The notes under the pieces: generated by a model | The model's database searches: none | What the model was told of the DNA's origin: nothing | Seen by the model: only the letters and a program-made list of their open reading frames with translations | Shown: positions 20,515 through 46,454 of the stretch, one piece after another | Layout of the letters: the number at the start of each line of letters is the position of its first letter | How positions within the stretch are numbered: the first letter of the stretch is position 1 | Position numbers and translations under genes: made by a program | Source of the DNA: Mycoplana azooxidifex | GTDB lineage: Bacteria; Pseudomonadota; Alphaproteobacteria; Rhizobiales; Rhizobiaceae | NCBI RefSeq assembly: GCF_014196765.1 | Contig: NZ_JACIEE010000004.1 | Span: 356,435-420,434 of the forward strand | Length of the DNA stretch: 64,000 bases | Direction of reading: 5' to 3'

Positions 20515-21555
20515 TCAGACGAAGAGGAAGTCGCTTTCGCGCAGCTCGGCGACCGTGGTGTCCTCCAGCGTCAGCCGCGCGCCGCCGAAGTCGAAGCGCA
20601 GGTCGTCGCCGCCATCGACTGGACGCGCCAGCGCCACCAGGTCGTCGAAGTCCGACACACCGAGGGACTTGCCGATCCGGACCGTATCGGTGCCGGCACG
20701 GTAGTCCTCGATCTCCGTGTAACCGCGGGTGAAGACGAACGTGTCGGCGCCGCTGCCGCCGTGCAGCTCGTTGCGGCCGCTGCCGCCGTCGAGCCAGTCG
20801 TTACCGGCACCGCCTTCGAGATCGTCATTGCCCCCCTCGCCATGGAGCCGGTCGTTGCCCTTGCCGCCCTCAAGCTCGTCGTGGCCGGTGCCACCGTACA
20901 GCTTGTCCTTGCCGTCACCGCCACGAATGTCGTCGCTGCCGGTGCCACCCCGGAGCGTATCGTTACCCCCATAACCCCAGATATCGTCGTTGCCGGCGCC
21001 GGCATTGATCGTATCGGCCTTCCCGGTCCCCCTGTGCTGCCCATCCGCGGAAGGCGTGGGATCCAAGGGGTCGGAGGCGGAGAAGCCGAAATGGGACGCC
21101 TTCAGGCTCGAAAGCTTCACGTCCTCGAGGCGCAGCGTGTTGCCGCCGCCGAAATTGAACAGCACGTCCTCGCCGTCATCGACCTGGCGTGCCTTGCCCA
21201 TCAGTTCGGCGAAGGAATCGATGCCCAGCGAACTGGAAAGGCTGATCTTGTCGTCGCGGATGCTGAAATCGTCGATCTCGTCGCGGCCGGAATGATAGAC
21301 GAACAGATCCTTGCCCGCGCCGCCCTCGAGCTCGTCGTTGCCGGCCCCGCCGATCAGCGTGTCGTTGCCGCTGCCGCCCTCGAGCTCGTCATGCCCGGCG
21401 CCGCCGTCCAGCCGGTCGTTGCCCGTGCCGCCTTCGAGGTCGTCATTGCCGGCATAACCGTAGAGCTTGTCGTTGCCGTCGCGTCCGAAAATGTCGTCGT
21501 CCCTGCCCGTTCCCTTCAGCAGATCGGCTTTCGTCGTTCCGTTCAATCTGGCCAT
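20515..21555 (-). CDS. Duplicated RTX (hemolysin-type calcium-binding) repeat protein
   Basis: 346 residues from MARLNGTTKA; AAAGGA lies nine bases before this ATG, whereas the ATG three codons upstream has no room for a site. Two homologous modules, residues ~1-160 and ~175-346. Each begins with GGxGxDxLx nonapeptide repeats (about 7 and 9) that form a calcium beta-roll, and ends with a repeat-free tail of shared sequence (SLGIDSFAELMGKARQVDDG against SLGVSDFDDLVALARPVDGG, then an FGG-LxLEDxxxxxLxxSxFxF end). No enzymatic domain. The acidic, hydrophobic C-terminus (ESDFLFV) fits type I secretion. It is divergent from the PepSY/two-component operon. Function unknown; possibly an extracellular matrix or adhesion factor. 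Confidence 0.88.
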   Translation of the reverse strand: MARLNGTTKADLLKGTGRDDDIFGRDGNDKLYGYAGNDDLEGGTGNDRLDGGAGHDELEGGSGNDTLIGGAGNDELEGGAGKDLFVYHSGRDEIDDFSIRDDKISLSSSLGIDSFAELMGKARQVDDGEDVLFNFGGGNTLRLEDVKLSSLKASHFGFSASDPLDPTPSADGQHRGTGKADTINAGAGNDDIWGYGGNDTLRGGTGSDDIRGGDGKDKLYGGTGHDELEGGKGNDRLHGEGGNDDLEGGAGNDWLDGGSGRNELHGGSGADTFVFTRGYTEIEDYRAGTDTVRIGKSLGVSDFDDLVALARPVDGGDDLRFDFGGARLTLEDTTVAELRESDFLFV

Positions 21556-21655
21556 GTCCAGCATCCTTTCAGTTCTGAGTGGCGGCACCGTCGGAAAGAC
21601 CCAACCGGCGCCATGGCGAATGGGCGGACACTGGACGACACCACCTTTTGCCGTC

Positions 21656-21700
21656 CTGACAGCGGCTGTCAGCGAGTTGTCAGCTTCGCCCGGATATGCA
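21656..21700 (+). promoter_or_regulatory. PhoP-box-like direct repeat and -10 of the two-component operon
   Basis: CTGTCAG (21666-21672) and TTGTCAG (21677-21683) form a direct repeat with 11-base periodicity, typical of OmpR/PhoP-type regulators. An inverted copy CTGACAG lies at 21656-21662. Twelve bases further on, TATGCA (21695-21700) is a possible -10 hexamer; in PhoP-type promoters the box replaces the -35 at this spacing. The inferred start of transcription falls on or next to the ATG at 21706. This is pattern recognition, not an established site. Confidence 0.5.
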
Positions 21701-21705
21701 AGAGC

Positions 21706-22065
21706 ATGTTCACAAATCGAAAATCCACACGCGTCAGCCTTCGGGTGCTGGCAGCATGTCTCGTCCTCTATCCGGTGGTTGCGTTGAGCGAAACCGCGCA
21801 GGATGATGACAACGACGACGCAAACGACGCCCGCGAGCACTACGAGGCCCGCGAGGCACTGAGGCTCGGGCAGATCCTTCCGCTGGACAAGATCATCGAG
21901 GCAGTGCGCAAGGAGATCGCGGGCGATATCATCGAGATCGAATTCGAGCGCAACGACGGGCGCTACGTGTACGAACTCGAGATCATCGATCCGTCGGGCC
22001 GGGTCGTCGAAGTCGAAGTCGACGCCAGGACGGCCGAGATACTGGAGCGCGAGGAGGACGAGTGA
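21706..22065 (+). CDS. Exported PepSY-domain protein
   Basis: 119 residues. Residues 1-29 form a signal peptide (hydrophobic core LRVLAACLVLYPVVAL). An acidic spacer (DDDNDDAND) follows, then a PepSY domain of ~60 residues containing ILPLDKIIEAVRKEIAGDIIEIEFE and ending in RVVEVEVDARTAEILE. PepSY proteins are periplasmic and are often encoded beside envelope sensor kinases, whose activity they are thought to tune. The stop overlaps the response regulator start (GTGA), so coupling is tight. The organisation recalls FeuN-FeuP-FeuQ of rhizobia, where a small periplasmic protein restrains the kinase; homology to FeuN is not claimed. Confidence 0.82.
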   Translation: MFTNRKSTRVSLRVLAACLVLYPVVALSETAQDDDNDDANDAREHYEAREALRLGQILPLDKIIEAVRKEIAGDIIEIEFERNDGRYVYELEIIDPSGRVVEVEVDARTAEILEREEDE

Positions 22066-24264: not shown

Positions 24265-25098
24265 ATGGGCGTGGTGCAGATTGTCCTTGGCGTACTCGCC
24301 TTCGCCGCCGTCACCATCGCCGGCGGTATCTGGGCCTTCCAGAACTACGGCATGTATCGTTTCGACCCCGAGCCAAACAGCCCCGCCGAATTCGGACTGC
24401 CATCCACGGTGAGGGTCGTCACATACACCTCGGAGGACGGAGCCCCCATCCATGCCTGGATCGCCGACCCCGCGGCCGGATTGCCCGTGATCCTCAGCTT
24501 CTACGGCAACCAATCGAGCATCGGCGGCTCGATGGGACGGCTCAGCAGCCTGATGGAGGCCGGCTACGGCATCGTCATGATGGAGTATCGCGGATCCGGC
24601 GGAACTGCGGGCAAGCCGAGTGCCGCAAATTTCGCGCGGGACGCGCGCGCTCTCTACGATCAGATAGATACGCTGCTGGGCCAGGCCATTCACCCCGATC
24701 GCCGGGCGCTCTACGGCTTCAGCCTGGGCGCGGGCGTCGCCAGCCAGCTTGCCGGGGAACGCAATTTCGGCGCCGTGATCTTCGAGGCAGCCCCCTACAG
24801 GACCTGCCTCTTCTACGAGGACCGCTACTTCGGCATTCCGCTTTGCCGCCTGATGTGGTCCGAGCGCTACGACATCGTCGATCACCTTCGCAACATCAAG
24901 GCGCCGAAGCTCCTGGTTCACGGCAGGCTCGATCGGTCCCTGCCGGTGGAACGCGCGCGCCGCCTGTTCCAGGAGGCCCCGGAACCGAAGAAATATGTCG
25001 AGCTGTCGGGCGGCGGCCACGCCGATCTGCACGAATACGGCCTGATTCCGGCAATCGAAACCTTCCTCAAGGAACAGTTGCGCCTCGCCGTTCAGTGA
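24265..25098 (+). CDS. Membrane-anchored alpha/beta hydrolase (BEM46/ABHD13-like)
   Basis: 277 residues with GGGGAG before the ATG. Residues ~4-24 form a single N-terminal membrane anchor. The hydrolase fold follows: oxyanion-side LSFYGNQSSIG near residue 78, nucleophile Ser153 in YGFSLGAG, acidic residue in LVHGRLDRSLPVERA, and catalytic His in GGGHADLHEYG. Relatives are uncharacterised esterase/lipase-like proteins at the membrane. It is convergent with the PKS-NRPS gene, 25 bases away with no clear terminator between; no evidence ties it to that pathway. Confidence 0.82.
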   Translation: MGVVQIVLGVLAFAAVTIAGGIWAFQNYGMYRFDPEPNSPAEFGLPSTVRVVTYTSEDGAPIHAWIADPAAGLPVILSFYGNQSSIGGSMGRLSSLMEAGYGIVMMEYRGSGGTAGKPSAANFARDARALYDQIDTLLGQAIHPDRRALYGFSLGAGVASQLAGERNFGAVIFEAAPYRTCLFYEDRYFGIPLCRLMWSERYDIVDHLRNIKAPKLLVHGRLDRSLPVERARRLFQEAPEPKKYVELSGGGHADLHEYGLIPAIETFLKEQLRLAVQ

Positions 25099-25123: not shown

Positions 25124-34354
<9,231 letters not shown>

Positions 34355-34418: not shown

Positions 34419-37400
34419 CTACCGGCCGAAGCGGGCAAGCCGTGCGGCGGCACGTGCGGCGCCGCGATCGGCCGCGCTGGCCGTCCCGGTCGCCTGCCCT
34501 CCCAGGTGTGCGGCAATCGCGCGGATGGTGGGGAAGCGGAAGAGATCGGTGATGGCGACCTCGCGCCCGAGCTTCTCCCTCATCCGCCGCTGGACCTGAA
34601 CGACCAGCAGCGAATGTCCTCCGAGGTCGAAGAAGTTTTCCGTGACCGACACCTCGTCGAGCCCCAGCGCCTCGCGCCAGATTTCGACGATGCCGGTCTC
34701 GATATCGCCCTCCGCCGCCGTCATCCTGCTCCGCTCCGCGCGGCCCTGGGGCACGGGCAGCGCCTTGCGGTCGATCTTGCCGTTCGGCGTCAGCGGCATG
34801 CGCTCCAGAACGACGATCTGCGACGGCACCATGAAGTCGGGCAGCTTCGTCGCAAGAAGGGTGCGCAATCCGGCAACGGCGGGACGCGTTCTCCCTGCCG
34901 TGACATAGGCGACGAGGCGCACGTCGCCCTGGCCGTATTCCACCGCCCTGACGGCGGCCTGTCGGACGCTGTCATCGGATGCGAGCAGCGCCTCGATCTC
35001 CCCGAGTTCGATCCGGTGGCCACGGATTTTCACCTGTCCGTCGATCCGGCCGAGGAATTCCAGCGTTTCGTCCGGATGGCGGCGGACCAGGTCTCCGGTG
35101 CGGTAGTAGCGGCCCTCCGGCGTATCCACGAAGCGTTCGGCCGTAAGCTCCGGCCGGCCCCAGTAGCCGCGGGCGAGCCCCGCGCCGCCGATCCACAGCT
35201 CACCCTCGATCAGGTTCGGAAGCGGCAGCCCCGCGGGCGAGCGCACGCTCAGGTCCGTGTTGGCGATGGGCGCGCCGAGCGGCACGCGGTCGCCGACGGC
35301 ATCCAGCCGCGCGACAGAGGACCAGATCGTCGTCTCCGTCGGGCCGTACATGTTGAGAAGCGTCCCCGGCAACGCCGCCCGCAGGCTGCGGGCAAGATCG
35401 GGCGGGAAGGCTTCGCCCCCCACCATCATGCAGTCGAGACGTCCGAGCGCCTGTCGCCCGGCCGGATCGCCGGCAAGGTAGGTCGCCATCGACGGCGTGC
35501 ACTGCAGGTGCGTGATGCCGCCGGCAACGATGTCTTCGGCAACGGAGGCCTTGCGGGAGATCCCGCCCTCGGCCTGCAGCTTGTCCATCAGCCGCCGGAT
35601 GTTCGGCAGGTTGGCGAGCGCGGTTTCGGTATCGACGCCGAAGTCGATCAGGCAGGCGATCTCGTCCACGCCGATGGCCGCCACGTTGCGCACGATCTCC
35701 CCGGCCGTTTCCGGCGTTCCGAACAGGCCTGCCGTCCGGTAGTAGCGCTCGAAGGCGTGATCGAGCAGCGCGTCGAGTTCGGAAGCGGAAAGCGCCTCCT
35801 TCTCGAACACCTCCTGCGGCGTCATGCCCGCCTTTCCGGCCCGCTCGACGATCGTCGGGAAGGTCCAGGCGGCGCGGCGCACGAGATCGACCGCACTCTT
35901 CAGGTAGCTCTTCATCGGCTGGCGCGCGGCCGCCAGCACCGTCTCCTCGTCCTCGCCGACGAAGGTGTGCAGCATCAGCACCACATGGCCGGGGCCGGCA
36001 TGGCCCGCCTCCGCCCGTGCCACGCGATAGGCGCGGATCTTGTCTTCGACCTCTGCCATCGTCTGGCCGAGCAGATGGGTGAGCACGCCGCAGCCCAGCC
36101 GCCCGGCGGCCTCGAAGGTCTCGGGGTTGCCTGCCGCGGTCAGCCACAGCGGCATATCCCGCTGCACCGGACGGGGGTGGATCTGGATCTCGACCGGCTT
36201 GCCGTCGTGGCCCGGAAACGCCAACGTCTCGCCCCGCCAGAGCTTCCGCATCGTCTCGACCGAACCGAGCATGATCTCCTTCCGGTCGCCGAAGGCCTCG
36301 GGCCGGAGCAGGAAGTCGTTGGGCTGCCAGCCCGAGGCCAGCGCCAGGCCCGCACGACCGTTGGAGAGGTTGTCCACCAGCGCCCAATCCTCGGCGGCAC
36401 GCACCGGATGATGCAGCGGCATCACGGTCGATCCGGCGCGCAGCTTGACGTTCTTCGTCAGCCCGGCAAGGGCTGCCGAACTGATCGCCGGGTTCGGATA
36501 GAGCCCCCCGAAGGCATGGAAATGCCGCTCCGGCGTCCAGATCGCCTCGAAGCCGTTCTCATCGGCGAAGCGGGCTCCCTCCAGGAGCAGCCGATAGGCC
36601 TGGTGGCCGCTGCCGGCCGCCTCGGAGGCGAAGTAGAAGAGGGAGAACGCGGGAAGCGCGCCCTCGCCCGCCCCGTCGGTCTGCAGCACCAGCGTCGCGC
36701 CGCAGGCGAGCGTCCACAGGATCTCCAATACCGAGATATCGAAGGACACGGACGTGACCGCCAGAAGGCGCGCGCCGGGGGAAAACGGCACAGTGGCGTC
36801 CATGCCGGCGAAGAAGTTGGTGACGTTGCGGTGGGCGATCATCACGCCCTTCGGCCGCCCGGTCGAGCCGGACGTATAGATGAGATAGGCGAGGTCGCCC
36901 GGTGTGCCGCGCGCATCCTCGACGGCGGACCCGACCGCGTCGGGCAGGATGACGATGCCGGGATCGAGCGCCAGCCGGCTGGCCGCCGAACGGCTCGCCA
37001 CGACGATCGGCGCCCCGGAGTCTTCGAGCATGAAGCCGATGCGCTCGGCCGGATAGGAGGGATCGAGCGGCAGGTAGGCGGCCCCCGTCTTCAGGATGGC
37101 GAGCATCGCCACGACCAGCTCGGCCGACCGCTCGAGGCATAGCCCGACCACGACGCCGGGCGCGGCGCCGTGTTCGGCAAGCGCACCCGCCAGCCGCGCC
37201 GCCCTTGCGTCGAGTTCGCGAAAGCTCAGCCGGGTTGTCCCCGCCTCCAGCGCCGGCGCATCCGGCATCAAGCGACACATGTCGGCAATCATCGCATGGA
37301 TCGTGCGCGGCTCAGTGCCCGGAGCATCGTTTCGCGCCACCGCCATCTCGCAGCCGAGCGGCAGGGTCGCAAGCGGCGCGCCCGCCCGCGCAACGAACGC

Positions 37401-38882
37401 ATCGAGAAATACGGCGAAGTCCGCGGCAAGCGCTGCGAGCACCGCCGGCGCGAAATGCCCGCTTGCGATGCGGATCGACGGCGGATCGGCGCAGAGCACG
37501 ATGGCGGCATCCTCCGGTGCCTGTTCCGCCCGTCCCGCCAGCACGACCTTGAGCGCCTGCAGCACCCTTTGCCGCGTTTCCGTATCGGTGAGCCGCAGCG
37601 GCAGGTCCGCCGCCATCGGCGCCCGCGCGAAGGCGGCCTGCCGCGCAAGGCGCAACGCCTCCGTCGCATCGTGCGGGGTCATGCCGGCGGCGATGTCGAG
37701 CGTGACAGGACGCCGGTCCGAAAACCAGGGGGCCCGGGGGGCCAAAGGTTCCGGATCAAGATAGGTGATCGTCGCCTCCGCCTGCCCGGTCATGCCCGCG
37801 ATCCAGGCGAGCCAGGCCGCGGCAAGCGTGTCGGCATCCACCTTATCGATGGCAAGCAATGCCGTGCCGCTGCCGGCGGTATGCGACAGCGGATAGGGCG
37901 GCAGCGCCGGGACGGCCCGCCGCAATTCGGCTTCCCATTCGGGCTCGACCTTGCCCGTCTCCGACGATCCCGGCCCCCGGTAGTTCCTAACCGATGGCAA
38001 CACGACGCCCGGCACCAGTCCGGCCGCGGCAGGATCGATCGGCCTGCCGAAGAGATCGGCGAGCCCGCTTAGCCGTACGCCCGAATCTGCCGCCATAATG
38101 GTGACGGACTCGCCATCGCTCGCGACAACGGCTCCGGGGGTTCCCGCACCGCCTGCCACGATCTCGAGCCGGCCGACCGTCAGGAGCGATGTCCCCGTCC
38201 ACAGCTTGGCGAGCGCGAGCGGGTTCGCATAGCCGCCGAAGTTCAGGCCGCGCACCATGCGGCAGAGCACGCCCGCCGGCGCGGCGAAATTGAGCGTGCC
38301 GAGCGCCTCGGGTCGTTTCGCCTTCGCATACCAGCCCCGGTCGCCGGTGGCCGCCGCCGGCTCGCACCGGCCCTCCATGAGTTCGGACAGGAGTTCGCAG
38401 AAGCTTTCGAATCCGGCCTCATAGCATCGCGCGTTGAGGCTGAAGGCCGTGTCGTTCGGCCCGATCGGGAAGCGCCGCTCCTTCAGCACGCGCCCGGCAT
38501 CCACGCGCTCGGTCATCTCGTGCCACGTCACCGCATGCTCGGCCGCGCCCTCGATGACGCTCCAGGCAGGAACGTTCGATCCCGCCCGCGCCGGCAGCGG
38601 CCCGTCGTGGAAATTGACGGCCGCCAGCTTCGCCTTGCCTAGCGTCGCCGGCGACAGCACGGTCAGGTTGGCGACGCTGAAGATGTAGTCCGCTTCCTGC
38701 CCGATCTCGGCCTCTTCGAACGCCATGCGGGCAATGCCCTCGGCCTCCGCCCAGGCGGCGATCTGCGGATCGGTGGAGACGATGCCGGCGATCCTTCCCC
38801 CCGCGTCGCGGAAGGCTTCCGCGCAGCGAAGGAGCAGTGTGCCGTTACCAAAGAAAAAGGCGGTCCGATGAATTTCAACCAC
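34419..38882 (-). CDS. Loading NRPS: formyltransferase - degenerate C - A interrupted by luciferase-like monooxygenase - PCP
   Basis: 1,487 residues from GTG 38882, with GAGG eight bases upstream. Residues 1-190 are a formyltransferase domain with catalytic Asn90, His92 (NFHDGPLPARAG) and Asp128; 195-290 its C-terminal part. Residues ~300-520 look like a remnant condensation half with no HHxxxDG. The adenylation domain starts ~526 (IYTSGSTGRPKG ~666; A4 SFDISVLEIL ~711) and is interrupted at ~740-1105 by an FMN-dependent luciferase-like monooxygenase of the MupA/Atu3671 type (FSLFYFASEAAG, ERHFHAFGG). It then resumes (THLQCTPSMATYL; A5 NMYGPTETTIW ~1176; PNGKIDRKAL). PCP Ser1424 in GGHSLLVV. 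Expected role: load, N-formylate and probably oxidise an aminoacyl unit, then pass it to the following KS. Specificity residues read by eye resemble a glycine code. Confidence 0.92.
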   Translation of the reverse strand: MVEIHRTAFFFGNGTLLLRCAEAFRDAGGRIAGIVSTDPQIAAWAEAEGIARMAFEEAEIGQEADYIFSVANLTVLSPATLGKAKLAAVNFHDGPLPARAGSNVPAWSVIEGAAEHAVTWHEMTERVDAGRVLKERRFPIGPNDTAFSLNARCYEAGFESFCELLSELMEGRCEPAAATGDRGWYAKAKRPEALGTLNFAAPAGVLCRMVRGLNFGGYANPLALAKLWTGTSLLTVGRLEIVAGGAGTPGAVVASDGESVTIMAADSGVRLSGLADLFGRPIDPAAAGLVPGVVLPSVRNYRGPGSSETGKVEPEWEAELRRAVPALPPYPLSHTAGSGTALLAIDKVDADTLAAAWLAWIAGMTGQAEATITYLDPEPLAPRAPWFSDRRPVTLDIAAGMTPHDATEALRLARQAAFARAPMAADLPLRLTDTETRQRVLQALKVVLAGRAEQAPEDAAIVLCADPPSIRIASGHFAPAVLAALAADFAVFLDAFVARAGAPLATLPLGCEMAVARNDAPGTEPRTIHAMIADMCRLMPDAPALEAGTTRLSFRELDARAARLAGALAEHGAAPGVVVGLCLERSAELVVAMLAILKTGAAYLPLDPSYPAERIGFMLEDSGAPIVVASRSAASRLALDPGIVILPDAVGSAVEDARGTPGDLAYLIYTSGSTGRPKGVMIAHRNVTNFFAGMDATVPFSPGARLLAVTSVSFDISVLEILWTLACGATLVLQTDGAGEGALPAFSLFYFASEAAGSGHQAYRLLLEGARFADENGFEAIWTPERHFHAFGGLYPNPAISSAALAGLTKNVKLRAGSTVMPLHHPVRAAEDWALVDNLSNGRAGLALASGWQPNDFLLRPEAFGDRKEIMLGSVETMRKLWRGETLAFPGHDGKPVEIQIHPRPVQRDMPLWLTAAGNPETFEAAGRLGCGVLTHLLGQTMAEVEDKIRAYRVARAEAGHAGPGHVVLMLHTFVGEDEETVLAAARQPMKSYLKSAVDLVRRAAWTFPTIVERAGKAGMTPQEVFEKEALSASELDALLDHAFERYYRTAGLFGTPETAGEIVRNVAAIGVDEIACLIDFGVDTETALANLPNIRRLMDKLQAEGGISRKASVAEDIVAGGITHLQCTPSMATYLAGDPAGRQALGRLDCMMVGGEAFPPDLARSLRAALPGTLLNMYGPTETTIWSSVARLDAVGDRVPLGAPIANTDLSVRSPAGLPLPNLIEGELWIGGAGLARGYWGRPELTAERFVDTPEGRYYRTGDLVRRHPDETLEFLGRIDGQVKIRGHRIELGEIEALLASDDSVRQAAVRAVEYGQGDVRLVAYVTAGRTRPAVAGLRTLLATKLPDFMVPSQIVVLERMPLTPNGKIDRKALPVPQGRAERSRMTAAEGDIETGIVEIWREALGLDEVSVTENFFDLGGHSLLVVQVQRRMREKLGREVAITDLFRFPTIRAIAAHLGGQATGTASAADRGAARAAARLARFGR

Positions 38883-39492
38883 GCGATACCCTCGAGCCTA
38901 GACCGTCGAAAGTGTCGGAGTATCAGCCGGTCCCCCAGTAGAATCCAGCGGTTAAGGGCTTCTAATTATGATGATATTGGCTGCCTTCACAGTCGTAAGG
39001 GGAGTGCACGGTAGGCATTGTCTTCGCACCGCATACAACCTTCAGTATGAGCTAAGGGGTGCTCGTGGACAGCAAGAAGATTGATCCCTACGCCATGTCG
39101 CTAAGCGCGCGGTAGCGTCCATATCTCCACCGGATGATGCGGGTGAATGGGACCGATTGCGCGTTTTCCCCACCATCTGATCATAGGGTTGCACTGCGTC
39201 ACGGCAGGCCTCGCACACGCTTTTGGTGATCGGCGGGGAGGGACTAGAGCTAAATCTTTGGATTTAAATTGATAGTTTGAGGACCCCTTCGGCAAGGGCG
39301 GCTGGAGCAAATCCCCATCACACGCAAGGCGGGCAAAAAAGTCAGCAACCCTGACCTTTACACGCATGCCCCTGTACGCGGACCGCGTAATCACGCCCTA
39401 CCCGCGGCCCGCCTTTTTGGGGCTAAGCCTATTGGCTGCGCAAGACGCATCATCGCCATGCGATCGCGCCACCTCAGTCCGCCGGAGCCGGC
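38883..39492. other. 610-base intergenic region upstream of the NRPS operon
   Basis: The longest non-coding stretch. It is visibly more AT-rich than its surroundings (for example around 38963-38985 and 39248-39285) and should contain the NRPS operon promoter on the minus strand. It also holds a perfect 7-bp palindrome (39375-39389, TACGCGG/CCGCGTA). A pair AAGGCGGGC (39325-39333) and GCCCGCCTT (39407-39415) are reverse complements, the second followed by TTT. A 97-codon minus-strand ORF (39101-39394) has no coding character that I trust. Confidence 0.5.
39065..39115 (+). CDS. Very short ORF, possible remnant or leader
   Basis: GTG start with AAGGGG seven bases upstream encodes 16 residues (VDSKKIDPYAMSLSAR) before a TAG. 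The composition looks like the N-terminus of a real protein that stops early. It may be a gene remnant left by rearrangement or chance. Evidence is only the ribosome site. Confidence 0.2.
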   Translation: MDSKKIDPYAMSLSAR

Positions 39493-40488
39493 CTACGCCC
39501 TCTGCACCGTCGTAATCCTGTCCCATCCGCCGACGACGTCCGCAAAATCACGCCACACGATCTCGGCGCCGCGCTCCCAGGCCTCCCGTGAATCGACCTT
39601 GACGATCTCGCCGCCGCCCGCGACCGCCTGCCGGACCGACGCCGCCTCGTCCTCGACAATCAGCCGGTTGAAATAGTCGGCCCCCATGGCGGAAGCCTCC
39701 CGCAGGACCTCCCTCTCCGCGTCCGTCAGTTGGTTCCAGAAGCCGGCCGCGAAATAGACCACCCCGGAGGCGCGGATATGCGCGGTCTCGGAGAGGTACG
39801 GTACGACCTCATAGAGCCTGAAGCCGGCGTAGGCGGATTTCGTCAGGTCCATGGCGTCGGCCACGCCGGTCGAAAGCGCGTTGTAGGTCTCGGTGATGGG
39901 GATGCCGACGGGAATGGCGCCATAGGCGCTCCACAGCGTCGTGTGAAGCGGACTCTGGATGATGCGCATCTTCATCCCCCGCATCTGCGCCGGCTCGGTG
40001 ACCGGCTCCTTGGTCAGAAGGTGCCGGGCGCCATAGTCTATGAACCCGCCGACGACGAAGTTCTGTGCCTGCAGCCGCAGCTTCAGGTCCTCGCCGACCG
40101 GCCCCTCGACGACCCGGCGCACATGGCTCGCATCCCGGTAGAGGAACGGCAGGTCGAGGATCTGCGCTTCCGGCACCCAGCCCGCCAGCGACGACAGGGT
40201 GGCGAGGCTCGCCTGTACCGAACCCAGCCTTGCCCCCTCCGCCACCTCCTTCTCGCCGCCGAGCGCCCCGTTCGCGACGACATTGAAGCGGAACCGGCCC
40301 GGCAGCCGCGCCTCGACCGTCTCGGCGATCTGCCGCCAGATCTTCGTCTCGGGCTTGTCCTCGCCGAGCAGGGAGGCGACGGTGATCGTCGTCGCACGCG
40401 CCTGCGCCGGGCGGACGAGCGCCGGCGCAGCCAGCACGGCGGCCGTTGCTGAAGAGCGCAGGAACAGGCGGCGTGTCATCTGGGTCAT
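39493..40488 (-). CDS. TRAP transporter solute-binding protein (DctP family)
   Basis: 331 residues; GGAG sits five to eight bases before the ATG. A twin-arginine signal peptide (TRRLFLRSSATAAVLAAPALV, about residues 5-32) sends it to the periplasm. The mature part has the DctP fold features: GALGGEKEVAEGARLG near residue 75, DLPFLYRDASHVRRVVEGPVG, and MKMRIIQSPLHTTLWSAYGAIPV, where the family arginine binds a carboxylate. YFAAGFWNQLTDAEREVL is typical of the C-terminal hinge. It is separated by 11 bases from the fused permease gene and belongs with it. Its position at the end of the thiamin operon suggests a thiamin-related ligand, but the ligand cannot be read from sequence. Confidence 0.88.
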   Translation of the reverse strand: MTQMTRRLFLRSSATAAVLAAPALVRPAQARATTITVASLLGEDKPETKIWRQIAETVEARLPGRFRFNVVANGALGGEKEVAEGARLGSVQASLATLSSLAGWVPEAQILDLPFLYRDASHVRRVVEGPVGEDLKLRLQAQNFVVGGFIDYGARHLLTKEPVTEPAQMRGMKMRIIQSPLHTTLWSAYGAIPVGIPITETYNALSTGVADAMDLTKSAYAGFRLYEVVPYLSETAHIRASGVVYFAAGFWNQLTDAEREVLREASAMGADYFNRLIVEDEAASVRQAVAGGGEIVKVDSREAWERGAEIVWRDFADVVGGWDRITTVQRA

Positions 40489-40499
40489 GGGGGCTCCGA

Positions 40500-42278
40500 T
40501 CACGAAAGAAGCGCGTAGGCGCTGAGAAGAATGAGGGAGAAGAGCAGGGCTGCGAGGTAGGGCAGGACGGCGCGGAACAGCGCCGGCGCCGGCACACCGG
40601 TGACACCGCCAACCACATAGACGAGCATGCCGAGCGGCGGCGTCAGCCCGTGGATCATCAGGTTGACGACCACGATCACGCCGAACTGGATGGGGTCGAT
40701 GCCCGCCGAGACGGCGGCGGGCAGCAGGATCGGGCCGAGAAGCAGGATCGCCGCGCCGATGTCGAGCACCAGCCCCAGGAGAAGCAGCACCACGTTCGAC
40801 AGCAGCAGCACCGCAAGCGCACCACCGCCGAAACTCGAGACGACCTGCGCCACCGCGCCGGCGATGTCGTCCATGGCCAGGAGTGCGGCAAACGGGCCGG
40901 CCGAGCCGATCAGCAGGCCGATCGCGGCAGCCTCCGTCGCGGCACGCCGGAAGGTTGACCAGAGCGTTCCGGCCCTCGTTCCCGCAGTCAGCCCGAGGGC
41001 GAGCGTATAGAAGGCGGCGACCGCGGCAGCCTCCGTCGTGGTGACGACGCCGAGGCGGATGCCAGCCACGACGATCACGCCGAGGCCGAGCGCCGGCAGC
41101 GCGGCCGCTGCGGCCGACCTGCGAACCTCGCCGGAGGCCGGCAGGCTCGAACTGCCCTCGTCCACGCAGACGTGGATGGCCACGGCCAAGCAGGCCGCCA
41201 TCAGCCCGCCGGCGAAGACGCCGCCGACAAGCAGCGGACCGACCGGCAGGCTGGTCGCCGCCGCGAGCAGCAGGAAGGCGATCGATGGCGGGATGACATT
41301 GTCCAGCACCGAGGTCGCGGCGATGATCGCACCCGCCTTCTGCGGCGGATAGCCGTTGCGGACGAGTTCGGGATAGAAGGTCGACGCGCCGAAAGCGGCG
41401 TTGGCGACCGACGAGCCGGAGGCCCCGGAGAAGAACACCCCCGAAAGCAGCGTCGTCTGCGCCAGGCCTGCGCGCCGGTGGCCGACCAGCGCCTTCGCCA
41501 GCCGGACCAGGCGCCCGGCGGCTCCCGAAGCGGTAAGCAGCCCACCAGCGAGAAGGAAGAACGGGATCGACAGCAGCAGGAACCGCGACATGCCGGAGAC
41601 GGCAGTGGAGACGATCGCAGGCTCCGGCAGGCTCGCGCCGAAGGCGATCGCCACATAGGCGGCGGCGAGAAAGGCATGCGGCAGCGGCGCGGCGGCCATG
41701 AGGCCGAGCCCGGCCACGAGCGCGAGGAACAGGCTCGACGGCAGGGAGGTCCCGACCGCCAGATACGGCACCGCCAGGTAGACAGCTGCCCCGACGCCAA
41801 GGGACGAAAGCGCGGGCACCAGCCGGCCCTCCGCCATCCGCTGCAGCAGAAGTGCTACGAGCAGCAGCAGGCCGCCGCCGCCGAGAAAGCCGAACCGCAC
41901 CCATTCCGGCAGCCCCAGCATCGGCGAGATGCCGCCGAGCAGGCCCATGATCTCGTGACTGCCGGACACCAGCACCAGCGCCGCCACGACGCTGAAGACG
42001 TCGCCGCCGGCCTGCCGCCAGCGCGCCGGCAGGCTGCGCGAGAACAGATCCATCCGCATCGCCAGCGCGCCGTTCAGGGCCAGCGGCATGCCCAGCGCGA
42101 TCAGCGCCACGTGCAGCCATATGCACAGCTCCTCCACGCCGACGACGCCGGTATGAAAGACGTATCGCAGGACGACGGAGGCCAGCACGATGGCAAGGAG
42201 CGCGGCAAGGATAAGCGCGCACAACTGGCCGAGCACAGCCTCCATCGATGCGAGCAGTCGCCTGCTCAAGCCGGCCAC
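40500..42278 (-). CDS. Fused TRAP transporter permease (DctQ-DctM)
   Basis: 592 residues. Residues ~1-165 match the small four-helix DctQ subunit (VVLRYVFHTGVVGVEELCIWLHVALIALG). Residues ~165-592 match the large DctM subunit with ~12 helices, including SIPFFLLAGGLLTASGAAGRLV, SGASGSSVANAAFGASTFYPE and DNVIPPSIAFLLLAAATSLPVG, all family signatures. The fusion is complete, with no frameshift. If the GTG at 42278 is used, the gene overlaps thiD by 13 bases; TTG 42269 and ATG 42245 are alternatives and none has a clear ribosome site, so translation is probably coupled to thiD. It couples uptake to an ion gradient. Confidence 0.9.
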   Translation of the reverse strand: MAGLSRRLLASMEAVLGQLCALILAALLAIVLASVVLRYVFHTGVVGVEELCIWLHVALIALGMPLALNGALAMRMDLFSRSLPARWRQAGGDVFSVVAALVLVSGSHEIMGLLGGISPMLGLPEWVRFGFLGGGGLLLLVALLLQRMAEGRLVPALSSLGVGAAVYLAVPYLAVGTSLPSSLFLALVAGLGLMAAAPLPHAFLAAAYVAIAFGASLPEPAIVSTAVSGMSRFLLLSIPFFLLAGGLLTASGAAGRLVRLAKALVGHRRAGLAQTTLLSGVFFSGASGSSVANAAFGASTFYPELVRNGYPPQKAGAIIAATSVLDNVIPPSIAFLLLAAATSLPVGPLLVGGVFAGGLMAACLAVAIHVCVDEGSSSLPASGEVRRSAAAAALPALGLGVIVVAGIRLGVVTTTEAAAVAAFYTLALGLTAGTRAGTLWSTFRRAATEAAAIGLLIGSAGPFAALLAMDDIAGAVAQVVSSFGGGALAVLLLSNVVLLLLGLVLDIGAAILLLGPILLPAAVSAGIDPIQFGVIVVVNLMIHGLTPPLGMLVYVVGGVTGVPAPALFRAVLPYLAALLFSLILLSAYALLS

Positions 42279-43066
42279 CAGCGGTGGAAGTGGTGCACCG
42301 GCCCCCGACCGCCCCCGACGGCCAGGTCGCGCCCGGCCGCCAGCGCCTGCTGCAAGTAGGCCCTGGCCATGGCGGCCGCCGCGAAGAGGTCGTGTCCCCT
42401 GGCGAGGTTGGCGGTGATCGCCGCCGCCAGCGTGCAGCCCGTGCCGTGGTCGTGCCGCGTCTCGATCCGGGGGGCCGACAGGCGGCGCACCTCGTTGCCG
42501 TCGAAGTAGAGGTCGGCGCTCTCGGCGCCGTCGCCATGGCCGCCCTTGACGAGCACAGCGCCCGCGCCGGCCTTCATGATCGCCTCGGCCTGCCGGGTCA
42601 TCGCGGCCCAGTCGGTGGCGACCGGCGTACCGGTCAGCAGCGCCGCTTCGGGCAGGTTCGGCGTCACGATCAGCGACAGCGGCACGAGTTCCTCGGTCAG
42701 CGCTGTGATCGCCTCCTCCCGCAGCAGCTGGTCGCCGGAGGTCGCCACCATGACGGGGTCGAGCACGGGGCGCAGGCCGAACCGCCGCAGGCCGTCCGCG
42801 ATCGTCGCGATCGTTTCGGTCCGCGAGACCATACCGATCTTCACGGCATTCACGGAGAGGTCGGTCAGCACCGCCTCCATCTGCGCCGCCACCATCGGCT
42901 GCGAGATATCCTCCACCGCCGCAACCCCCTTCGTGTTCTGCGCGGTGACCGCGGTCAGCACGCTCGCGCCATAGACGCCGAGCGCCGAGAACGTCTTGAT
43001 GTCCGCCTGGATGCCGGCGCCGCCGCCGCTGTCGGACCCGGCGATGGTGAGTGCGATGGCGGTCAT
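42266..43066 (-). CDS. thiD: Hydroxymethylpyrimidine/phosphomethylpyrimidine kinase
   Basis: 266 residues. Phosphorylates HMP and HMP-P to HMP-PP for thiamin synthesis. Ribokinase-fold signatures: AGSDSGGGAGIQADIK at the N-terminus, DPVMVATSGDQLL near residue 105, NLPEAALLTG, VKGGHGDG, and the catalytic GTGCTLAAA anion hole near 210. Start overlaps the thiE stop (ATGA). It is cotranscribed with thiE, thiM and the transport genes under the TPP riboswitch. Confidence 0.95.
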   Translation of the reverse strand: MTAIALTIAGSDSGGGAGIQADIKTFSALGVYGASVLTAVTAQNTKGVAAVEDISQPMVAAQMEAVLTDLSVNAVKIGMVSRTETIATIADGLRRFGLRPVLDPVMVATSGDQLLREEAITALTEELVPLSLIVTPNLPEAALLTGTPVATDWAAMTRQAEAIMKAGAGAVLVKGGHGDGAESADLYFDGNEVRRLSAPRIETRHDHGTGCTLAAAITANLARGHDLFAAAAMARAYLQQALAAGRDLAVGGGRGPVHHFHRWWPA

Positions 43067-43725
43067 GCGACCCTCCCTTCGAGCGCCGCGTCGACGGCTG
43101 CCCGGAATGCCGCCGTCGCCCGTGCTATGTCGCGGCTGCGGAAGATCGCAGAGATCGCGGCCACGCCATCGGCGCCGGCGGCGATGACGGAGGGTATCCG
43201 GGAGAGATCGATGCCGGCGATGGCGCCGACCGGCAGCGCCGAGTTGAGGCCGCGCAATTGCTCGCGCAGCAGCTTCAGCCCGCCGATCCCGACCGGCTGG
43301 TCGGGGTTTGTCTTCGACAGCGTCTCGAACACGCCGCCGATGCAGGCATAGTCGACTGGCGCCCGGCCGGCGCGCTCCGCATCGGCCGCGTTCTTCACCG
43401 TCAGCCCGATGATCGCCTGCGGCCCCAGCAGCCGGCGCGCGGTCTGCGCATCCATGTCGTCGGCTCCCAGATGCACGCCGTCGGCCCCGGCTGCCAGCGC
43501 CACGTCCACGCGGTCGTTGACGACGAACGGCACGCCGGTGCCCGTCAGCGCCGCGCCGATCGCCTTCGCCTGCATGATCATCTCTGCGGTCGAGGCGGTC
43601 TTGTCGCGATACTGGATCAGCGTCGCGCCGTTGCGGGCGGCCGCCTGCGCGAGCGCGGCAAGCGGGCCGACGTCGGCAAGCCCGGCATCCACCAGCGCGT
43701 TCAGCCGATAGTCAATCCTGGTCAT
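43063..43725 (-). CDS. thiE: Thiamin phosphate synthase
   Basis: 220 residues from the ATG with AAGGA seven bases upstream, overlapping thiM by 14 bases. Joins HMP-PP and thiazole phosphate. TIM-barrel signatures: LIQYRDKTAS, VVNDRVDVALAAGADGVHLGADD, GLTVKNAADAERA, and GIGGLKLLRE. ThiE is normally ~210-220 residues, so it is full length. The GxTxKN variant in place of GxSxH occurs in proteobacterial relatives. Confidence 0.93.
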   Translation of the reverse strand: MTRIDYRLNALVDAGLADVGPLAALAQAAARNGATLIQYRDKTASTAEMIMQAKAIGAALTGTGVPFVVNDRVDVALAAGADGVHLGADDMDAQTARRLLGPQAIIGLTVKNAADAERAGRAPVDYACIGGVFETLSKTNPDQPVGIGGLKLLREQLRGLNSALPVGAIAGIDLSRIPSVIAAGADGVAAISAIFRSRDIARATAAFRAAVDAALEGRVA

Positions 43726-44458
43726 AATGAATCCTTGCATGGGTAAGCAGTTCCCGTTCGCCGATCGCCGACAGCGCGTCGAGAAAGGCCACGCCGAAAC
43801 TGCCGGGGCCGCGAGAGAGGGGGGCGGCGAGCTCGGCTGCGACGCCGGTGACCGCAAGCGCGCTCGCCGCGGCTACAAGGGCATCAGGTTCCACCGCCAT
43901 GAAGGCGGCGATGACGCCGCCGGTCAGGCATCCGGTCCCCGTCACCTCGGCCATCCAGCGGTGACCGTTGGCGACACGGACCCCTTCGCCGCCGCTGCCG
44001 ATCCGGTCGACCTCGCCGGTCTGGATGCGCAGGCCCGGCCCGGTGCTGCCGATGAGGGCCATCTCGGCGGCATTGCCGCGCACGATCGTCGGCCCGAGCG
44101 CGATCAGCTCCTGCGCGAAGGCCAGACGCGAAGGCGAGTAGTCGCAATGGACGGGATCGAGGATCCACGGCTTGCCGGCCGCATTGACGACCTCGACGGC
44201 GCGCAGGATCACCCGCCGGCGCTCCGCGTCGAGCGTGCCGAGGTTGACCGTCAGCACGTCCGCCCTTGCGGCGAAGTCGGCGATCTCCTCCGGCGACGAG
44301 GTCATCGACGGTATGCCGCCGACGACGGTGATGCCGTCGGCGGTGAACTTCTGCACCACCGTGTTCATCAGGCAGTGAACCCGCGGCCTTCGCTCTCGCA
44401 CGCGCGCGAGAACAAGGGCCGCCGTTTGCGGTGTGGGATAGGTACCCATCGCGCTCAC
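43712..44458 (-). CDS. thiM: Hydroxyethylthiazole kinase
   Basis: 248 residues, GTG start overlapping the thiY stop (GTGA). Salvages the thiazole moiety by phosphorylation. Signatures: VHCLMNTVVQKFTADGI near residue 28, DPVHCDYSPSRLAFAQEL, VRGNAAEMALIG, and the ribokinase-like VTGTGCLTGGVIAAF with the Cys at the active site. Together with thiE and thiD, and no thiazole- or HMP-synthesis genes here, the operon is a salvage/uptake set. Confidence 0.93.
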   Translation of the reverse strand: MSAMGTYPTPQTAALVLARVRERRPRVHCLMNTVVQKFTADGITVVGGIPSMTSSPEEIADFAARADVLTVNLGTLDAERRRVILRAVEVVNAAGKPWILDPVHCDYSPSRLAFAQELIALGPTIVRGNAAEMALIGSTGPGLRIQTGEVDRIGSGGEGVRVANGHRWMAEVTGTGCLTGGVIAAFMAVEPDALVAAASALAVTGVAAELAAPLSRGPGSFGVAFLDALSAIGERELLTHARIHYDQD

Positions 44459-45399
44459 CGGACCTCGACGGCAACAGCGTCGACGGCCGGCGCTGCCTCG
44501 ATCAGGCCGCTCTCCTTCATGAACGCGCCGAACCGCTCGTAGCGCGCGCGGTCGAGCGCTGCCGGTCGCTTGGCAAAACGCGGCAGCGTGTCCGTGAAGG
44601 CCTGCCGGTTCAGGGCGTCGTCGAGGTCGGGATAGGTCTTGACGAAGAGCTGCCAGGCCTCGTCCGGATGGTTGGTGATGAACACGGCCGCCGTCTCCAC
44701 GGCGGCGAGGAAGCGCGGGAGGCGGTCGTCGGCGACGAGATCGCTGTGGGTCACGAAGACCAGCTCGTCATAGACCGGCACGCCGTGCTCCTCGGGAAAA
44801 AAGGCACGGCCCTCGTGGCCCGCTAGCCGCATTTGCGTAAGCTCGAAATTGCGAAACCCGCCGAGGGTGGCATCCACCTTTCCGCCGATCAGCGAGGGCG
44901 ACAGCGAGAAGTTGACGTTGATCAGTTCGACGTCGCTCTTGGAAAGGCCTTCGGAGGCGAGCATGCGCCCAAGCATCGCATCCTCGAAGCCGGAGACGGA
45001 GAAACCGATCCGCTTTCCCTTGAGGTCCTTCAGGCTCTTGATCGGACCATCTGCCAGCACGGTGACCGTGTTCAGCGGCGTTTCCACCAGCGTACCGAAG
45101 CGGACGAGCGGCAGGCCGGCGGCATGGTCGAGATACAGGTTCGGCTGGTAGTGCACGCCGATGTCGGCCTGCTTCGCCGAGACCAGCCGCGGCACGGCGG
45201 AGGGGTCGGCCGGCGGCACGAGCTCGACCTCCAGCCCGGCCTCGGCGAAGAGGCCGCGTTCCCGGGCGATCACCATCGGTGCATGGTCGGGATTGACGAA
45301 CCATTCGAGCAGGATCGTCAGCTTGTCGGCGGCGGATACGGGGCCGGCTGCGACGCCGGCGAGCGCCAGCGTCAAGAGGAAGGAAAGGGTGCGGATCAT
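44455..45399 (-). CDS. thiY: ABC transporter substrate-binding protein for thiamin pyrimidine (ThiY-like)
   Basis: 314 residues. Signal peptide 1-23 (RTLSFLLTLALAGVAAGPVSA). The NMT1/THI5-like domain begins LTILLEWFVNPDHAPMVIA, the signature of ThiY/ThiT-type binding proteins that carry N-formyl-aminomethylpyrimidine. It continues with FGTLVETPLNTVTVLADGPI and GKRIGFSVSGFED. Start overlaps the thiX stop (ATGA). It works with ThiX and an ATPase; no ATPase gene is adjacent. Confidence 0.9.
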   Translation of the reverse strand: MIRTLSFLLTLALAGVAAGPVSAADKLTILLEWFVNPDHAPMVIARERGLFAEAGLEVELVPPADPSAVPRLVSAKQADIGVHYQPNLYLDHAAGLPLVRFGTLVETPLNTVTVLADGPIKSLKDLKGKRIGFSVSGFEDAMLGRMLASEGLSKSDVELINVNFSLSPSLIGGKVDATLGGFRNFELTQMRLAGHEGRAFFPEEHGVPVYDELVFVTHSDLVADDRLPRFLAAVETAAVFITNHPDEAWQLFVKTYPDLDDALNRQAFTDTLPRFAKRPAALDRARYERFGAFMKESGLIEAAPAVDAVAVEVR

Positions 45400-46181
45400 G
45401 GTTTGCGAGGTCTCCTGCGCAAGGGATTGAAGGACGGGGTTTCTGTTTCTTCGGCCCAGGGCGTGAGGCCGGCGGTGAGGCGGTCGACGGCGAGCCGCAG
45501 CAGCACGGTCAGTGCGGCGAGAACCGCCATGGCGGCGAAGACGGTCGCGGTCTGCATGCGGGCGTTCGCCTGCACCATGACAAAGCCGAGCCCGGCCGAG
45601 GCCCCCACCCACTCGCCGACGACGGCGCCGAGCGGCGCCAGCGGGGCGGCCACCCGCAGGCCGGAGATGAGCCCCGGCAGCGCCAGCGGCACCCGGACGG
45701 CGAGAAGCGCCTGCCAATGCGTCGCAGGTGTCAGCGACACGGCGTCGAGGATGGTGCGGTCGGTCCGCCGCAATCCGTCGGCAAAGGCGGATGCGACGGG
45801 AAAGAAGATGATGATCGTCGTCATCGCCACCTTCGAGGCCATGCCGAAGCCGAGCCAGAGGACGAGGATCGGCGCCAGCACGAAGACGGGAAACGCCTGC
45901 AGGATCAGCACCATCGGCCAGACGAGCTGGCCGAAGCGCGGCAGCGCCGCAATGCCGAAGGCCGTGGCCGTGCCGAAGAGGGTGCCCGTCAGGAGCCCGG
46001 CCAGGATCTCCGTCATCGTTACCAGGCTGTGGCCGGCAAAGAAGCCGGGACGCTCCGCGAAGGCGGAGACCACGGCCGCAGGCGAGGGCAGGAGATAGGG
46101 TGGGGGAGCGAAAAGCCAGACCGATGCCTGCCAGAGGGCGGCAAGGGTGACCGTGGCCAGCCCCGCGTGAAGGGCGCGCAT
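45396..46181 (-). CDS. thiX: ABC transporter permease (ThiX-like)
   Basis: 261 residues from ATG 46181; a TTG-started extension to 46256 is less likely. About six membrane segments of the BPD_transp_1 family with the EAA-type cytosolic loop (DAVSLTPATHWQALLAVRVPLALPGLISGLR). Related to SsuC/TauC and ThiX permeases. The first main gene after the TPP riboswitch. A 24-codon leader ORF with a better ribosome site ends seven bases before this start. The usual partner ATPase ThiZ is missing from the operon. Confidence 0.88.
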   Translation of the reverse strand: MRALHAGLATVTLAALWQASVWLFAPPPYLLPSPAAVVSAFAERPGFFAGHSLVTMTEILAGLLTGTLFGTATAFGIAALPRFGQLVWPMVLILQAFPVFVLAPILVLWLGFGMASKVAMTTIIIFFPVASAFADGLRRTDRTILDAVSLTPATHWQALLAVRVPLALPGLISGLRVAAPLAPLGAVVGEWVGASAGLGFVMVQANARMQTATVFAAMAVLAALTVLLRLAVDRLTAGLTPWAEETETPSFNPLRRRPRKP

Positions 46182-46263: not shown

Positions 46264-46335
46264 GGTCGATCTCCCGAACGATTTCACGGAGATCCAGGTG
46301 AGCGGAGAAGAGAAAGAGGCACCTTGCGGGCGTTT

Positions 46336-46421
46336 TCCGTTCCTACGCCGGTATGACCCGGATCAGGTTCAAGGGTCCGGCTCACCGCCATCTCAGCACC
46401 GTTACGATGCCCCCCTCGGAA
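46336..46421 (-). ncRNA. TPP riboswitch (THI element)
   Basis: On the minus strand the conserved THI-box runs through GGTGCTGAGATGG, ACCCTTGAACCTGATC and CATACCGGCGTAGGAA, with GAGGGGGGC at the 5' side, in the right order and spacing. These bind the pyrimidine and pyrophosphate of TPP. The aptamer starts about 35 bases from the preceding MFS gene's stop and ends about 70 bases before the leader ORF. In proteobacteria such elements usually control translation by masking the ribosome site, here GGGAG before 46263. Confidence 0.95.
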
Positions 46422-46454
46422 TAGTTGGGAAACTGACGACAATATCGGCCGATG

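Follow-up and report, generated by a model that had tools for sequence, protein, structure and literature searches.

The window, a 64,000-nucleotide stretch of the Mycoplana azooxidifex genome, encodes on its minus strand (34419..38882) a 1,487-residue protein, with a GTG start, that has the architecture of an apparent starter module: a formyltransferase (F) domain, a probable remnant of a condensation (C) domain, a glycine-type adenylation (A) domain split by a luciferase-like monooxygenase (LLM), and a carrier (T) domain, abbreviated F–C-lobe–A(Gly)[LLM]–T. We consider with moderate confidence that this protein is the starter module of a two-gene NRPS/PKS line and that it acts by glycine loading, N-formylation, hydroxylation of the α-carbon by the LLM on the carrier, and transfer to the PKS. 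In this scheme, glycine activated by the A domain would be loaded onto the T domain of the same protein. F, to which the leftover C-lobe is fused, would formylate the glycine nitrogen, the N-acylation task held by a C domain in most relatives devoid of F. The inserted FMN-dependent LLM would then hydroxylate the α-carbon of the carrier-bound N-acyl-glycine, and the product would pass to the KS-AT-KR-DH-ACP part of the next protein and then to its C-A-T-TE part. What we infer are the formylation, the sequence of events, where the hydroxyl is placed, and the identity of the end product. The scheme is favored because the precedents, as described in the accessible parts of the reports, assign Cα-hydroxylation to such oxygenases. 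The architecture, insertion site, and motifs support it at the sequence level, as do a pocket of the glycine type, signs of purifying selection, the N-acylating partner that is usually present, and the PKS gene often found nearby.

The F domain occupies residues 1–300 (37983..38882), with a match to PF00551 (Formyl_trans_N) at residues 62–161. It is followed by the probable C-terminal lobe of a C domain, without the N-terminal half (residues 310–520; 37323..37955), by the N-terminal part of the A domain, which extends up to and past core A4 (residues 527–742; 36657..37304), by the FMN-dependent LLM insert identified with TIGR04020 (residues 746–1098; 35589..36647), by the C-terminal part of the A domain containing cores A5 to A10 (residues 1109–1378; 34749..35558), and by the T domain (residues 1398–1460; 34503..34691), all on the minus strand. 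Pfam matches in the same protein include Bac_luciferase at residues 749–1073, AMP-binding_C at 1295–1369, and PP-binding at 1398–1460; a TE domain was not matched by Pfam in this protein. The interruption of the A domain, proposed in the earlier note, was confirmed by AMP-binding matches in two stretches, the better one at residues 538–735, around the TIGR04020 match. The LLM bounds given previously were 35590–36660, and the TIGR04020 match spans 35589–36647. Neither F nor the C-lobe had been pointed out in the earlier note. A promoter scan of positions 38700–39600 returned none.

Core A4 (SFDISVLEIL) starts at residue 713 and the LLM begins approximately 31 residues past Asp715. Following the LLM, the A sequence resumes at ITHLQCTPSM, and the YGPTE motif of core A5 starts at residue 1179. 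Alignment with eight uninterrupted A domains, seven from relatives and one from the neighboring PKS-NRPS protein, placed the extra residues in a loop that runs from the strand GATLVL, after A4, to the helix before position 278. The placement of the insert between A4 and A5 is therefore correct, as the earlier note had it, and an insertion between A8 and A9, of the SolF type, is ruled out. Both halves of the A domain are present on either side of the oxygenase, as in MtaG and MelG, which we take to be the gene names of the glycine A-MOx modules for myxothiazol and melithiazol, respectively. In an alignment of the window protein with 63 of 68 extracted relatives (64 sequences), cores A3, A5, A7, A8, and A10 are largely conserved, and the carrier Ser of the T domain is present in 64/64, which indirectly favors an A domain that would fold across the insert. 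The idea that the A4–A5 site is unusual did not survive comparison with the literature: the available text of two reports names A4–A5 among the known insertion sites of interrupted A domains (PMC8097286) and places an FMO domain between a4 and a5 in the myxothiazol and melithiazol synthetases (PMC10204066). A claim of a new site is thus excluded. The family search led to the same conclusion, both A halves lying directly beside the LLM in 76 of the best 80 loci of the genome scan, so that the insertion is largely a common and characterized one. The A4–A5 oxygenase insertion is already known from the pathways of a few antibiotics; less familiar is the starter module, with F and a C-lobe, that surrounds it.

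Other insertions were seen in some LLM-interrupted A domains. Four loci (L092, L104, L112, and L121) encode doubly interrupted A domains, with the LLM at A4–A5 and a second insert of approximately 400–470 residues, SAM-methyltransferase-like by eye, in the A8–A9 region. An F-A[LLM] protein from Anabaena (L086) has approximately 175 extra residues within the N-terminal A part.

The insert is a member of the MupA/Atu3671 LLM family, as the earlier note had recognized. The 1,487-residue protein matches the NCBIfam model TIGR04020 with 482.7 bits, for a cut-off of 244.45, over profile positions 1–340 of 341, so that nearly the whole model is covered; FMN-dependent oxygenase activity is predicted from sequence. 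Of eight places in the whole genome with TIGR04020 matches (E-value of 0.001 or lower), only the 34419–38882 protein exceeds the cut-off. The nearest solved relative is the LLM domain of PuwE (PDB 6ket; 480.8 bits). The TPERHF motif is invariant in the 64 aligned sequences. An Arg of the window LLM aligns with His44 of bacterial luciferase, which we take to be the catalytic residue of that enzyme; the active site therefore differs from the bacterial luciferase model.

The gene is present in five of the six other genomes of the same genus in the draw, with an open frame of 1484–1528 aa, and no match to it was obtained in the sixth (G001). Comparison of the window with these five genomes gave dN/dS values of 0.06–0.11 for the LLM, 0.06–0.18 for the A halves, 0.22–0.27 for F, and 0.32–0.42 for the region between F and A. 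The conservation of the open frame and the low dN/dS rule out a chance match or an error of assembly, and the LLM-bearing protein is, judging from these ratios, under purifying selection. Distances between A domains and between LLMs are correlated (r 0.54; 0/2000 permutations as high), less strongly than those of the two A halves (r 0.70). The weaker correlation leaves room for an occasional exchange of the oxygenase. In a quick tree of A domains, 71 interrupted domains were separated from 18 uninterrupted ones by a branch with a support of 87, which is suggestive, not decisive, of a single group of interrupted domains.

The pocket residues of the window A domain, read from the alignment, are D-I-L-Q-M-G-M-I-W-K. 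In PheA numbering, which we assume throughout, with a glycine code that we take to be DILQLGLIWK, positions 235, 236, 239, 278, 301, and 517 are identical in all 64 aligned A domains, position 331 is an invariant W, and position 330 is I or V. The same glycine-type pattern is thus found in 64/64 A domains, and the 1,487-residue protein appears, by its pocket, to load glycine, in agreement with the MOx-bearing A domains of the literature, which are also glycine-specific (PMC11342130, PMC10204066). In a genome of the window's family (L020:8343-17096), a free-standing LLM gene adjoins NRPS genes with uninterrupted A domains that display a glycine-like pocket pattern; the same chemistry may perhaps occur there in trans.

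Residues Asn90, His92, and Asp128 of the F domain occupy the positions of an Asn/His/Asp triad, which we take to be the usual formyltransferase triad. Among 48 aligned F domains, they are conserved in 47, 46, and 47 sequences, respectively. The order of an N-formylating starter of the LgrA type (F-A-T), with a triad-bearing F domain upstream of A, is therefore present, and formyl transfer is predicted. Instead of the upstream C domain that would acylate the nitrogen in an MtaG/MelG-type module, the protein contains F and a C-lobe-like region. The assignment of this lobe rests on relatives because the region between F and A of the window protein has no Pfam match. Partial matches to the C profile (413 positions), none beginning before position 126, were detected in 10 of 58 F proteins, and a full C domain in none of the 58; Pfam, run on 48 F proteins, returned Formyl_trans_N in 48, Formyl_trans_C in 41, and Condensation in 12. 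Since the F–A region of relatives matches only the later part of the C profile, these profiles make F look like a replacement for the first half of a C domain.

The upstream region was inspected for 80 A[LLM] genes, a count that leaves out loci whose flank was limited to 1.5 kb and genes starting at a contig edge. The protein itself contains F in 58 cases, a full C domain in 19, and a C-lobe in one (L064), for which F is encoded just upstream, outside the frame. An N-acylating partner was thus found for 78 of these 80 genes. For the two others (L101 and L112), neither F nor a C domain was detected anywhere in the available stretch, so that an N-acylating partner is a strong tendency rather than a rule; L112 is also one of the loci with a second A8–A9 insert. 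These counts suggest N-acylated glycine as the usual substrate of the oxygenase, though not in every case. The version combining F with a C-lobe was not found described in the open-licence literature, several key papers lying outside that scope, and no characterized F-A[LLM] example was seen in the same literature.

The downstream partner (25124..34354, minus strand), a protein of 3,076 aa with the order KS-AT-KR-DH-ACP-C-A-T-TE, starts 64 bp after the LLM gene. A terminal position with TE release, as in an MtaG/MelG-type module, is therefore not seen here, the next gene being a KS-led PKS-NRPS gene. A convergent gene on the plus strand (24265..25098) encodes an α/β hydrolase that shares 53% identity with the esterase located next to the equivalent gene pair of Aliiroseovarius sp. 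M344; an esterase/hydrolase match was obtained in two (L022 and L043) of 11 loci searched. A KS-containing neighbor was found within 3 kb at 44 of 57 F-A[LLM] loci, downstream on the same strand in 36 and upstream in eight, most commonly with the layout KS-AT-KR-DH-TE (25/44). Of the 13 F loci without such a neighbor, six have a contig end less than 3 kb away, and the remaining seven have at least 3 kb on both sides. The C-A extension of the PKS partner was found in the window's genus and, judging from the name and size of the product, in Aliiroseovarius; in L056 and L061, a separate C-A gene is located further on.

Elsewhere in the window, ARAGORN placed a tRNA-Ser (gct) at 41130-41223 (minus strand) within a TRAP-transporter gene (40500-42278), probably a false call. 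A TPP riboswitch (46323-46426, minus strand; 78.1 bits) lies upstream of minus-strand ORFs that are thiamine-like by eye (42266-45717), and seven stretches of the ORF at 20515-21840 match RTX calcium-binding repeats.

The genome scan covered one genome per species with the LLM alignment as query, and the best 80 of at least 587 matching stretches were kept; among these matches, 585 encode a relative. For four of the best 80, an A half qualified on one side only by our criteria: L074 and L108 stop at a contig edge, the gap is slightly wider in L111, and L084 has no second A half in frame. By record title, the best 80 loci span 13 phyla, F-A[LLM] genes occur in 11 phyla, and F-A[LLM] genes with a KS neighbor in eight; single placements may be wrong since many loci are metagenome bins. 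The frequency of A-inserted LLMs in the scan is biased because the query was seeded mostly with LLMs of this kind. In family-level draws, TIGR04020 matches were inside A domains in 16 of 19 cases for the phylum, in 8 of 10 for the relatives, a draw that overlaps that of the phylum, and in 1 of 3 for another class. Twelve genomes chosen through loci contained 38 such places; among the 30 that were defined as loci, 27 have the LLM at the A4–A5 position.

Eleven of these 27 LLMs are in degenerate A domains. They come from myxobacterial genomes (L130, L136, L140-L143, L145, L148, L149, L151, and L152) and are followed by a C domain; the A domains show 27–40% identity, and their C-terminal A part and T domain were not detected. 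Motifs A3 and A5 are eroded in the six that were read by eye. The 11 LLMs constitute a single clade of the LLM tree (support 100), and the A domain may be a mere scaffold in these cases.

The genomic context of relatives was also considered in plasmid records, of which 28 matched and nine were fetched, non-randomly and all from Alphaproteobacteria; one is devoid of annotation. NCBI names the plasmid genes of the same type as MupA/Atu3671 family. In seven of the eight annotated records, the gene and its PKS-sized neighbor lie among glycosyltransferase, flippase, or sugar-transferase genes. The Aliiroseovarius record, the only one in which the match covers 80% or more of the query, displays exosortase genes and no glycosyltransferase in view. 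In the genome scan, at least two matches to 29 query proteins taken from the plasmid records, mostly encoded by polysaccharide genes, were obtained for 13 of 52 F loci versus 3 of 28 loci without F, the latter being shorter (approximately 14.8 versus 18.7 kb on average). The esterase was the only match of the window to the 29 query proteins, none of the polysaccharide queries matching there. The link to exopolysaccharides was not carried over to the window and, because it is weaker in the wider set and absent from the window, is kept only within a broader and rather doubtful reading. In the latter, F-(C-lobe)-A(Gly)[LLM]-T and KS-AT-KR-DH-ACP-TE would form an uncharacterized two-gene line making a small oxidized glycine-derived acyl group, e.g. 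formamido-hydroxy-butenoyl or 4-oxo-butenoyl, maybe for surface polysaccharides in some Rhodobacterales, Rhizobiales, and Sphingomonadales.

Several observations weigh against glycine loading, N-formylation, and Cα-hydroxylation followed by transfer to the PKS: the two genes without an N-acylating partner in view (L101 and L112), the 7 of 57 F loci without KS, the replacement of His44 by Arg, the modest correlation of A and LLM distances (r 0.54), the one or two of 48 F domains in which a triad residue is missing, and the fact that sequence does not fix C- over N-hydroxylation. The same hydroxylation might also be followed by collapse of the carbinolamide, with release of formamide (or of ammonia if the glycine is not formylated); glyoxylyl-S-T would then serve the PKS as an aldehyde starter. 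This outcome is tenable, if unlikely. C–N cleavage does follow α-hydroxylation in myxothiazol and melithiazol, according to the available parts of the reports (PMC11342130, PMC10204066), but α-hydroxyglycine is retained in solanimycin B (PMC10204066), and collapse would waste the conserved F domain unless F only directs the cleavage.

Hydroxylation of the glycine nitrogen, yielding N-hydroxyglycine, an oxime, or N-formyl-N-hydroxyglycine as a metal-binding group, is improbable. Oxygenase domains, LLM or otherwise, have been proposed to make an oxime on the glycine primer of necroxime-type lines, as far as the accessible descriptions go, and a formylated N-OH would act as a chelator. The relatives of described role were nevertheless assigned to hydroxylation of the α-carbon in the portions available (PMC11342130, PMC10204066, PMC8739492, PMC4219810), and no siderophore-transport family was found among the subset of window ORFs scanned with Pfam.

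The earlier note had also suggested that the loaded amino acid is oxidized at the site of loading. Oxidation is still the likely purpose of the insert; its timing is less likely to be the adenylate or loading step than a later one, on the carrier and after N-acylation. Oxidation of glycyl-AMP or of free glycine during loading would fit the location of the insert in the A domain itself and the two A[LLM] genes without an N-acylating partner in view. It is highly improbable given the partner found for the 78 other genes and the reported precedents, which, in the text available, act on peptidyl (N-acyl) glycine (PMC11342130, PMC10204066). Finally, a catalytically idle insert with a structural role can virtually be dismissed in view of the low dN/dS of the LLM (0.06–0.11) and of the invariance of TPERHF (64/64).

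We retain α-hydroxylation of carrier-bound, probably N-formylated glycine as the preferred reading. Oxygenases housed in glycine A domains are almost always accompanied by a domain that could N-acylate the glycine, either C or F, and the apparent oddity of the insert becomes testable, the two-gene system being small enough to be reconstituted. Reconstitution would reveal how a starter unit is modified by MupA/Atu3671-type oxygenases, and the system offers a natural template for oxidizing glycine modules. The protein belongs to a little-studied and widespread kind of apparent starter unit, in which a formyl group may also be added to glycine.

Comparison with known systems, as described in the accessible parts of the reports, revealed partial similarities in each case. 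The MupA/Atu3671 family (TIGR04020) also includes free-standing and PKS-linked LLMs, unlike the A-inserted LLM of the window. In the puwainaphycin pathway, which yields a 2-hydroxy acyl chain, 2-hydroxylation of the carrier-bound chain has been proposed for PuwE, the nearest solved relative (6ket), whose LLM is located between PKS and NRPS modules and not inside an A domain (PMC4219810). An α-hydroxylation by a similar oxygenase has been proposed for palmerolide (PMC8739492). The crz-like clusters of Serratia and Pseudomonas harbor MOx domains within glycine A domains, as in the window, but in the second A domain of a lipodipeptide synthetase (PMC11342130). Module 4 of SolF, for which Cα-hydroxylation of glycine has been proposed, shares with the window an FMO in a glycine A domain and, in solanimycin, has an α-hydroxyglycine product; its FMO is inserted between a8 and a9, whereas the window LLM lies between A4 and A5 (PMC10204066). 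MtaG and MelG likewise contain a flavin monooxygenase between a4 and a5 of a glycine A domain, and this oxygenase hydroxylates glycine at the α-carbon in myxothiazol and melithiazol synthesis (PMC10204066, PMC11342130). Judging from these descriptions, the window protein has F and a C-lobe where MtaG and MelG have a C domain. The MtaG/MelG module is reported to terminate the chain, an amide being left, whereas the window module is an apparent starter beside a PKS gene.
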